A stretch of DNA of 35,478 bases from Deltaproteobacteria bacterium. Its GTDB lineage: Bacteria; Desulfobacterota; Deferrimicrobia; Deferrimicrobiales; Deferrimicrobiaceae. The notes beneath the pieces were generated by a model. It did not search any database. It saw nothing but the letters and a program-made list of their open reading frames with translations, and was not told where the DNA came from. The position numbers were made by a program, and so were the translations under genes. The stretch spans positions 1,296,112-1,331,589 of the forward strand of contig CP070783.1 in the NCBI GenBank assembly GCA_020346465.1, read 5' to 3'. The first letter of the stretch is position 1. Every line of letters starts with the position of its first letter. Shown here one piece after another: positions 2,502 through 4,406 of the stretch.

Positions 2502-2666
2502 ATGCCCACCTATTCCTTCGAGTGCAAAAAATGCAGGAAGAAGTTCCAGGAAATCCTCTCCTTCTCGGAATTCGAAACGGGGAAGCGGAAGTGCCCGAAG
2601 TGCGGCAGCAAGAGCGTCTCCCAGGTGCTCGAGACCTTCTACGCCAAGACGTCCCGGAAGTCGTAG
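2502..2666 (+). CDS. FmdB-family zinc-ribbon protein
   Basis: A 54-residue protein starting MPTYSFECKKC. Two CxxC knuckles (Cys8/Cys11 and Cys27/Cys30) separated by a Phe/Glu-rich strand form the single zinc ribbon of the FmdB/CxxC_CxxC_SSSS family, followed by a Ser-Lys-rich tail. The ATG is preceded at five bases by AGGAGG (2491-2496), the clearest Shine-Dalgarno site in this part of the window. The family is widespread and of uncertain function, sometimes described as a putative regulator. It ends 12 bases before the LOG-family gene and is probably co-transcribed with it. Confidence 0.85.
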   Translation: MPTYSFECKKCRKKFQEILSFSEFETGKRKCPKCGSKSVSQVLETFYAKTSRKS

Positions 2667-2678
2667 AAAGAAGATCCC

Positions 2679-3377
2679 GTGGAGGAATTCGTAGGGGTCG
2701 AGACGTGGCGCGTGTTCCGCATCATGAGCGAATTCGTGGAGGGGTTCGAGGCCCTCCGCAGCGTCGGGCCGGCCGTTTCCATCTTCGGCAGCGCCCGCGC
2801 CAAGCGGAGCAACTGGTCGTACAAGGCCACCTGCAAGGTGGCGGAAACGCTCTCCCGCAATGGATACGCCGTCATCTCCGGAGGCGGCCCCGGGATCATG
2901 GAGGCGGCGAACCGGGGGGCCAAGCGCGGCAAGGGGCTCTCCATCGGGCTCAACATCCAGCTCCCCGAGGAGCAGAAGGTCAACCGGTACCAGGACAAGT
3001 CCCTCCACTTCAAGCATTTCTTCGCGCGCAAGGTGATGTTCGTGAAATACGCGGCCGGCTACGTCATCATGCCCGGCGGGTTCGGCACGCTCGACGAGTT
3101 CTTCGAGTCGCTCACCCTGATCCAGACGGGGAAGATCCGCCGGTTCCCGGTCGTGCTGATGGGGGAGAGCTACTGGGGTGGGCTGCTCGAGTGGATGCGG
3201 TCCTCGATGATCCAGGAAGGGACGATCTCCCGCTCCGACCTCAAGCTCTTCCACGTCACGGACGACCCGGTCGGCGCGGCCTCCTTCATCATCAAGTCCC
3301 ACAAGGACAGCATCCGGGCGGTCGACGAGCGGCGCAGGATAGCCCTTCCCCCCCCGGACGACACGCCCACGCTGTAA
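2679..3377 (+). CDS. LOG-family (TIGR00730-type) nucleotide phosphoribohydrolase
   Basis: A 232-residue protein with the two LOG-family signatures: GGGPGIMEAANRGA (about residues 68-81) and PGGFGTLDE (about 131-139). These form the active site for hydrolysing nucleoside 5'-monophosphates to base and ribose 5-phosphate. Many bacterial members act on cytokinin-type or ordinary purine/pyrimidine nucleotides; the substrate here is not visible. The start is a GTG with AGAAAGAAG upstream. An in-frame ATG 15 codons later is possible, but the sequence before it is compatible with the usual N-terminal helix. It lies just downstream of the FmdB-type gene and is followed by the inverted-repeat element. 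Confidence 0.85.
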   Translation: MEEFVGVETWRVFRIMSEFVEGFEALRSVGPAVSIFGSARAKRSNWSYKATCKVAETLSRNGYAVISGGGPGIMEAANRGAKRGKGLSIGLNIQLPEEQKVNRYQDKSLHFKHFFARKVMFVKYAAGYVIMPGGFGTLDEFFESLTLIQTGKIRRFPVVLMGESYWGGLLEWMRSSMIQEGTISRSDLKLFHVTDDPVGAASFIIKSHKDSIRAVDERRRIALPPPDDTPTL

Positions 3378-3388
3378 CTTCCAACACC

Positions 3389-3529
3389 GGGGACGTTCTT
3401 AAACTTTTTCATGGGCAAGTGTCTTCGATGACGTTTTCCCGGATGGTTTCCCCCACGCCCTCCCCGAAGGGAAAGGGGCAAGAATCTCTTGTTCTGTCGT
3501 TCCACCTTAAAAAGTTTAAGAACGTCCCC
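3389..3529. repeat. 141-bp element with perfect 21-bp terminal inverted repeats (MITE/REP-like)
   Basis: Positions 3389-3409 are the exact reverse complement of 3509-3529 over 21 bases. The outer end of each arm is GGGGACG and the inner end is a run of five T (or A). The 99 bases between hold no gene but contain smaller inverted repeats: CAAGA-ATC-TCTTG, and CCCC/GGGG arms around GAAGGGAAA. The right arm's last base is the third base of the hydrolase stop codon. The structure fits a non-autonomous mobile element or a REP-type palindrome mobilised by a Y1 transposase encoded elsewhere. It may also act as a two-way terminator between the convergent genes. Confidence 0.75.
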
Positions 3530-4317
3530 TAAAGGAAAGTAAGGACCTCGCGGTTGAACGCGTCCGCGTTCTCCGCAAAGAAGCGGTGCGGCCCGCCCGG
3601 AAGGAGAACGAGTTTCGCTCCGGGGATGCGACGCGCGATGCGACGCGAATTTTCCGGAGACACCACCATGTCGCCGTCCCCGGTGACCACCAGCGTCGGC
3701 ACGCCGATGGACCCCAGCCTCTCCCACGCCGAATGACCGACCGCCGCCGCAAGCTGCGCGGCGTTCCCCGCCGCGGAAACCGGCTTCGCAAGCCTTCTCC
3801 GGACGAACGCCTCGATCTCCTCCGGGTGGCTGCGCCGGTACCCCTCCGTGTACAGGAACGGGAGGGTCCGGCGGATCTCCTCCTCCGGGTCGGCCCCGGG
3901 GGAATGGACGAACGCCCCGAGGACCTCGGGCGCGGGGCGCACGGAGCCTTCACCGCCCGGCGCCGTGCACGCCAGCACCAGCTTCCGCACACGGTGCGGG
4001 TGCCGCAGCGCAACCTCCTGGGCGACCATCCCGCCGAGGGAAACCCCGAGGACGTGTGCCCGGTCCACCGCAAGATGCTCCAGGAGGGCTGCCGCGTCGT
4101 CGGCCATCTGCGCAGTCGTGTAGGGCCCCGGCGGTGTATCGCTCCCGCCGGCCCCCCGGTTGTCGAACGCGATCACTCGGAAGCGCCTCGCGAACGCGGG
4201 AAGCTGGAAGAGCCACTCCGAGCGGTCGCTCCCCAGCCCGTTGATCAGGAGCAGCGGTTCTCCCCCCCCGGTCGTCTCGTACTCCATGCGGAATCCGGGG
4301 GCGGTGGTATACGGCAT
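3529..4317 (-). CDS. Alpha/beta hydrolase fold protein
   Basis: A 262-residue hydrolase of the compact alpha/beta type. The oxyanion-hole strand is LLLINGLGSD (about residues 22-31) and the FDNRGAGGSD loop (51-60) is typical of esterase, lactonase and haloperoxidase relatives. The nucleophile elbow is GVSLGG with Ser93, and the remaining triad members are probably Asp216 (VTGDGD) and His244 (GGPHRF). The substrate is unknown. The ATG at 4317 follows GGAGGAGAGG and is preferred over a longer form that would add 18 low-complexity residues. It is divergent from rqcH. Its stop codon touches the inverted-repeat element, so its 3' untranslated region would consist of that repeat. Confidence 0.85.
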   Translation of the reverse strand: MPYTTAPGFRMEYETTGGGEPLLLINGLGSDRSEWLFQLPAFARRFRVIAFDNRGAGGSDTPPGPYTTAQMADDAAALLEHLAVDRAHVLGVSLGGMVAQEVALRHPHRVRKLVLACTAPGGEGSVRPAPEVLGAFVHSPGADPEEEIRRTLPFLYTEGYRRSHPEEIEAFVRRRLAKPVSAAGNAAQLAAAVGHSAWERLGSIGVPTLVVTGDGDMVVSPENSRRIARRIPGAKLVLLPGGPHRFFAENADAFNREVLTFL

Positions 4318-4391
4318 CGCCGGTCCTCTCCTCCCCGGGGGCCCGCGGCCGGCCTCATCCACGGGCTCCATTCTCCCCTTCCGGATGGGAG

Positions 4392-4397
4392 TACAAT
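4392..4397 (+). promoter_or_regulatory. -10 box for a probably leaderless rqcH transcript
   Basis: TACAAT matches five of six -10 consensus bases and ends nine bases before the ATG. Transcription would start at or just before the start codon. No Shine-Dalgarno site fits between the box and the ATG, and no good -35 box is visible. Confidence 0.45.
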
Positions 4398-4406
4398 AGC
4401 ATCACA

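Follow-up and report, generated by a model that had tools for sequence, protein, structure and literature searches.

REPINs of Pseudomonas, reportedly described by Bertels in 2011, are said to be pairs of short inverted repeats separated by a spacer, to be dispersed, and to be thought to depend on a RAYT acting in trans. The element considered here lies in a 35,478-nucleotide stretch of DNA, the whole of which is referred to as the window. It has in common with these REPINs the paired short repeats around a spacer and the dispersed copies; however, its transposase belongs to another branch, it has no GTAG palindrome, and its core is not common to the copies.

Closer relatives are found among the systems in which a Y1 gene lies between inverted repeats of a non-GTAG type. 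These were described as TIRYT/TIRtron systems in the accessible portions of Di Nocera 2013 (PMC3733652), where a GGGGWSAS motif is reported for some TIRs but not all and is not strictly defining, and where dimers of the TIR repeat are reported in some genomes. According to the same portions, GTAG/CGTC REPs lie near gene 3' ends, and CGTC REPs, reported without a dedicated transposase, form stems of 8-9 bp inside a single unit. As far as the accessible portions of Quentin 2018 (PMC6006769) go, 20 of the 26 examples of Di Nocera 2013 were placed in subclass 2.1, which has a C-terminal helix-turn-helix (HTH) that is Bac_DnaA_C-like in part of the subclass; no REP-like sequences were noted there at subclass 2.1, and the link to TIRYT was left to confirm. 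This part of the work thus leaves two questions, namely, whether subclass 2.1 transposases are the TIR-associated ones and what role the HTH has.

Compared with the TIRYT/TIRtron systems as they appear in these portions, the locus is alike in having a Y1 gene between non-GTAG inverted repeats and dispersed singles, dimers, and clusters. It differs in its head, which is GGGGACGT and not GGGGWSAS, in its arms, which vary between genera of one family, and in an 8-nt direct repeat that follows the head in a wider set of loci. With TnpAY1 subclass 2.1, as covered by the same sources, it shares the NHFH and Y[IV]HLNP motifs, an extra C-terminal Bac_DnaA_C-like HTH, and a low copy number, whereas here GGGACGT heads flank the family genes. 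The likeness to CGTC REPs is that the arm, read in the opposite direction, ends in ACGTCCCC, which contains CGTC; in contrast to CGTC REPs in the portions of the literature cited above, however, a single arm has no 8-9 bp stem (only a 3-bp GTT..AAC match was read directly from its sequence), and the transposase gene bears the same ends. A GGGACG head followed by 8-nt repeats was not found described in the accessible portions of Di Nocera 2013 (PMC3733652) or Quentin 2018 (PMC6006769), and no claim of priority is made. In our reading, the element is probably a non-autonomous dimer of inverted repeats that belongs to a TIRYT-type system and whose ends are specific to the lineage. An earlier note on this DNA was right in outline, both on the kind of element and in proposing a search for a Y1 transposase.

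Element structure and copies in the host genome

The 141-bp element with perfect 21-bp inverted ends at positions 3389-3529, as the earlier note had it, is real (Table 1). The repeat finder called the arms as a 30-nt pair at 87%, and among 35 genome copies the conserved arm exceeds 21 nt, extending from 14 nt outside GGGG to 23 nt inside. The element lies between two convergent genes, a 232-aa gene that we take to be of the LOG type and a 280-aa open reading frame (ORF) that the earlier note calls a hydrolase and that is presumably of the alpha/beta hydrolase type. The proposal that it fills the gap between them exactly needs correction: at one end it shares a single base with the hydrolase stop (TAG, 3531-3529), and at the other end 11 bp (3378-3388) are left before the LOG-type gene stop (TAA, 3375-3377), so that the gap is not exactly filled. 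The smaller inner palindromes proposed at the same time are weak: there is no second inverted repeat of at least 12 nt in 3200-3800, and the core differs at 42/99 positions in the related genome G004. Beyond partner arms, the core does not match the cores of other copies. A hairpin inside one arm, built on the GTT..AAC match, was considered and dropped, as it is broken in the arms of G018, G008, and G022 and its retention in the variants of the host type is partly forced by the search pattern.

Table 1. Features of the element and its neighbors (positions in the window)
Feature	Position	Strand	Description
Left arm	3389..3409	+	Head GGGGACG outward, GGGGACGTTCTTAAACTTTTT; 21/21 complementary to right arm
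Right arm	3509..3529	-	Same sequence as left arm; its first G also ends the hydrolase stop codon
Core between arms	3410..3508	no strand	99 nt; faster drift than arms
Outer, weaker conserved segment, left arm	3375..3388	+	Consensus TT[A/C]CTTTCCAAAAC, from 35-copy column conservation; overlaps LOG-type gene stop
Outer conserved segment, right arm	3530..3543	-	CTTACTTTCCTTTA; column conservation; overlaps hydrolase gene end
Convergent neighbor, presumed LOG-type gene	2679..3377	+	232 aa; from ORF list; pair conserved in relatives
Convergent neighbor, presumed alpha/beta hydrolase type	3529..4371	-	280-aa ORF; from ORF list; pair conserved in relatives

The earlier note had also proposed looking for other copies of the arm. 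In the host genome (G000), which is a single 2.32-Mb contig, 35 places match GGGGACGTTCTTAAACTTT when as many as 3 mismatches are allowed, compared to 0 for the reversed pattern. When a shorter, degenerate pattern was used and 2 mismatches were allowed, there were 47 matches (4 for the control), and exact GGGGACGTTNNNNAACTTT gave 31 (0 for the control). Aligned on the head, the 35 places have the consensus TT[A/C]CTTTCCAAAAC GGGGACGTTCTTAAACTTTTTAAT from -14 to +23. Seventeen of the 35 arms can be assigned, within 250 bp, to eight inverted groups whose heads point outward. The remaining 18 have no inverted partner within 250 bp, and two of these enclose the transposase gene described below. 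Degenerate partners of the single arms were not found above the outer-side control, in a scan that starts 24 nt inside the arm and misses a very near truncated partner, such as that at 616985. A plasmid source of the element was rejected, as megablast with 2600-4400 returned no plasmid match.

The resident transposase and its wider branch

A single PF01797 match is present in G000 (34.7 bits, with a cutoff of 23), in a protein of 291 aa; overall, PF01797 was found in 35/59 genomes. This one detected Y1/HuH gene is enclosed by two arms at 459925 and 460957, about 1.03 kb apart and with their heads outward. The arm on its 5' side is the window arm, and that on its 3' side is the variant GGGGACGTTGCTGAACTTT. 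The two transposase arms are thus not identical in G000, nor are they in G002; one has GCTG, while the other has CTTA, as does the window element. A neighboring epimerase ORF ends within a transposase arm, resembling the way in which the hydrolase stop touches the window arm.

Among the family genomes, GGGACGT heads were found on both sides of the transposase at 13/13 loci with both flanks readable, the host's own included; the locus of G006, which stops at a contig edge, was left out of this count. Together with a dispersed population of arms that resemble the resident transposase ends, this supports subclass 2.1 being TIR associated. The epimerase neighbor is present at 14/14 family loci and a TrmI-like neighbor at 13/14 (missing in G006), and at three Y1 loci in a different family of this class, neither neighbor was found. 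The transposase has therefore been held at one place while the arms differ. Behind GGGACG, the transposase arms read TTCTTAAACTTTTTAATC in G000, G002, G013, G014, and G018, TTCCTGAGAA in G001, G009, and G011, TAGATGAGTTCTCC in G022, and TAGCTACAATTCTCC in G008, with those of G003, G004, and G012 being intermediate between types. The HuH and Tyr motifs (NHFH and Y[IV]HLNP) are intact in 12/12 aligned family proteins.

An alignment of these 12 proteins was used to scan for the wider branch, and of the 517 relatives found, the best 80 loci (L189-L268) were analyzed; judging by their titles, these are mostly from Deltaproteobacteria in the broad sense, with some from Chlorobi and others. Inverted ends at a score of at least 14 were present at 51 of the 70 loci with at least 150 nt on each side, compared to 19/688 mismatched pairings. 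GGGAC occurs in all 51 of these TIRs, GGGACG occurs in 48, and GGGGWSAS occurs in 1. At 69/77 loci, the gene is preceded by a GGGACG head no more than 220 nt away (reversed motif, 7; motif on the other strand, 4). Arms of the same locus are 86% identical and arms of different loci are 44% identical, with an arm's own partner being its best match in 45/56 cases. Behind the head there is a direct repeat of 8 nt. Its z was 10.6 for 42 arms typed from the 51 TIRs, with nine omitted by no set rule, and an automatic pick run as a replacement gave a z of 6.8 for 27 nonredundant arms against dinucleotide shuffles. Agreement at lag 8 is 0.447 behind the head versus 0.32 in the next inner stretch. In arms of the G000 type, the repeat as read from the sequence is only partial, with TTAA occurring twice 9 nt apart.

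At the protein level, Y1_Tnp was matched in 27/27 relatives and Bac_DnaA_C in 16/27 (E ≤ 0.01), and DnaA chains were matched by profile with an E value of 5.8e-4; the transposase of the host genome itself matched Bac_DnaA_C with an E value of only 0.26. The model of a relative, FeB_35 (L190; mean pLDDT, 84.9), which stands in for the host protein, predicts that residues 1 to 201 fold like E. coli TnpA-REP on the REP hairpin (4er8; Z, 16.7; 162 residues; rmsd, 2.9) and that residues 220 to 286 resemble domain IV of DnaA bound to a DnaA box (1j1v; Z, 9.1; 67 residues; rmsd, 1.5). A Z of 9.1 for a small helical domain is weak alone and is read here in combination with the Bac_DnaA_C and DnaA profile matches. 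By its motifs and domain matches, the transposase is of the TIRYT/subclass 2.1 type, with a TnpA-REP-like domain and a DnaA-domain-IV-like helix-turn-helix. Partial Mantel tests of arms against domains in 78 proteins gave 0.12 for the C terminus given the N terminus (0/500 permutations) and 0.11 for the N terminus given the C terminus (P = 0.03), and the C terminus was thus not singled out as the arm reader.

It was also observed in the wider set (L189-L268) that a promoter-like -35/-10 pair lies directly behind the upstream arm in 22/69 cases and behind the downstream arm in 0/62, the latter being not a strict control, as it partly covers coding sequence. Self-repression of the transposase is possible in this arrangement.

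Arms at the locus in related genomes and their explanation

The sequence GGGGACGTTNNNNAACTTT was found in 11/59 genomes (the host included), all of them among the 24 genomes of the same family, and in 0/35 others. GGGACGT-N55-85-ACGTCCC pairs were present in all 15 of the 24 family genomes that were tried, at 3 to 28 per genome compared to 0 to 1 for the control; some of the listed pairs are due to chance, as two of the four in G000 (350105 and 1530244) have no arm. Three of these genomes, G007, G010, and G016, are drafts with such pairs and no detected transposase of the TIRYT type; PF01797 had no match in G010 and G016 and only a short IS200-like one in G007.

The window locus was compared in ten relatives in which both convergent genes are on a single contig; in G024 and G025, the genes are arranged differently. 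At the hydrolase end, G002 and G004 carry the present element, G014 and G013 carry related arms, and G010, G008, and G022 carry other inverted repeats. No element is present there in G001, G009, and G023, in which both genes are kept. A check for the empty site in relatives, which the earlier note had suggested, thus gave three of ten without the element. No clean empty/filled pair was found, the best junction (G002 L166 versus G000 L180) informing on the left end only. A gene that we assume to be glutaredoxin-like lies between the convergent pair in 7/10 relatives (L102-L107 and L109); G001 has only part of it, and G000, G002, and G023 lack it. In G000 and G002, 11 bp lie between the upstream stop and the arm, as though a deletion had ended next to the element.

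Locus arms were scored against transposase arms over the 15 nt behind GGGACGT. The locus arm of G022 agrees with its own transposase arm at 14/15 positions and with those elsewhere at no more than 8, and that of G008 does so at 13/15 and no more than 9. The arm of G008 has 9 copies in its own genome and none in 23 others, 15 of them from the family. The locus arms of G000 and G002 match their own at 15/15, in common with genomes that have the same transposase arm, and those of G014 (14/15) and G013 (10/15) are likewise shared with other genomes. An exception is G004, whose locus arm scores 12/15 with its own transposase and 15/15 with the G000 type; the G010 arm has no score because no transposase was detected in that genome. 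At a second place (G000 464420-464532), G001 bears arms of the G001 type. These differences between genera suggest that the transposase and the copies have changed together. The case can be read as a REPIN-like example of transposase and element covarying over the long term in a system that is not of the GTAG type, and one locus allows comparison between genera.

The arms are kept while the core drifts. When the window locus was fetched by its genes, arms and core had changed at 0/42 and 15/99 positions, respectively, in G002 and at 1/42 and 42/99 in G004. Across many shared loci, arm conservation came out at 3/378 versus 108/1680 and 89/1663, figures that are biased because the motif was used to fetch both sides.

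Taken together, the element is most probably a non-autonomous terminal-inverted-repeat dimer, a REPIN-like foldback, mobilized in trans by the single resident transposase of the TIRYT/TnpAY1 subclass 2.1 type. We propose that its arms would pair as a foldback in single-stranded DNA, that the TnpA-REP-like HuH/Tyr domain would cleave the conserved GGGGACG head, and that the DnaA-domain-IV-like C terminus may read the variable inner arm and so confer genome-specific recognition. Reinsertion would favor places right behind stop codons. As a single strand, the DNA of 3389-3529 is predicted to fold on the arm stem (z = -4.32; 0/200 shuffles as good). As a tentative extension, it is conceivable that a two-reader HuH system is widespread, in which the TnpA-REP-like domain reads and cuts the near-invariant GGGACG head and the pair of tandem 8-bp repeats behind it is recognized by a captured DnaA domain IV; repeat and HTH would be retuned in each lineage, the transposase would stay single copy and syntenic, and the foldback population would be respecified, reoccupying the same gene ends. 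The head with its 8-nt repeats offers a concrete candidate substrate for probing the role of the HTH.

The arms could instead be relics that persist as protein-binding sites or via gene conversion, without present mobility. This is unlikely, as the HuH and Tyr motifs are intact in all aligned family proteins and the locus arm follows the genome's own transposase in G008 and G022, although 15 of the 18 G002 loci that were fetched sit at arm-bearing places of G000, so that recent movement is not evident. Among the 40 of 95 candidates that were scored, no match in G000 was found for the flanks of two of the three G002-only sites. The same reading would accommodate two length differences between these genomes: compared with L171 and L164, G002 is without about 5.5 kb that lie between two direct arm copies in G000 (C1:43568-49103), and it has about 1.9 kb extra between two direct copies elsewhere (G000 1554478-1554502), both of which are likely to reflect homologous recombination between arm copies.

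That the element is a shared bidirectional terminator, or a 3'-end-stabilizing hairpin, of both convergent genes and is kept for this function is improbable. Its convergent 3' position and a good RNA fold of 3375-3545 on the arm stem (z = -4.15; 0/200 shuffles as good) speak for this idea, and the 21-bp hairpin would be part of both genes' transcripts. A crude gene caller scored 11 of the 26 copy places as convergent, 7 as tandem, and 4 as undecided, and in 19/35 arms the head is no more than 40 nt from the stop codon of the head-side gene, a count that is without a random-place control; this caller missed the TrmI-like gene beside 459925. Against it stand the 3 places that are divergent and the 1 inside an ORF by the same caller, the three relatives that keep both genes without the element, and the different arm sequences at the locus in G008, G010, and G022. 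The use as a shared terminator proposed in the earlier note is further opposed by a search for intrinsic terminators (a G+C-rich stem and then a T run), which gave 0 in 3250-3700 on both strands (mean for shuffles, 0.8), and Rfam had no match at an E value of ≤0.1 in 2600-4400. For the earlier note, no second copy in the genome together with the same structure conserved in relatives would have pointed to a terminator only, and this is not what was found.

A canonical REPIN of a GTAG-REP/RAYT system is highly improbable, since the paired inverted short repeats, the single syntenic Y1 gene, and a match of the protein to NCBIfam REP_Tyr_transpos (63.5 bits) are offset by a cutoff of 80 for that family, by a GGGGACG head with no GTAG or GTGG tag at the hairpin foot in the 35-arm consensus, by the published subclass 2.1 motifs, and by the DnaA-type C terminus of the relatives. 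The element had been called a non-autonomous mobile element or REP-type unit, and this description is supported in outline, given the 35 copies, the Y1 gene enclosed by arms, the variable occupancy, and the differing arms; the REP label, taken strictly, does not apply because there is no GTAG tag, a single arm has no stable hairpin, and the transposase shows the features of the TIRYT branch.

Nested inverted repeats in the family

The G022 element (L109) encloses another inverted repeat, whose head is GGGGACAG-like; a similar one in G010 (L106) is less clear. This inner repeat would fit the reported GGGGWSAS class, which would make these nested systems. In G014 and G018, there are nested inverted pairs with differing arm variants, the outer arms in G018 being GTTCTGAAAAC and the inner arms being GTTCTTTAAG, and on contig 90 of G014 the nesting is 3-fold. 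It is as if elements insert in the loops of older elements.
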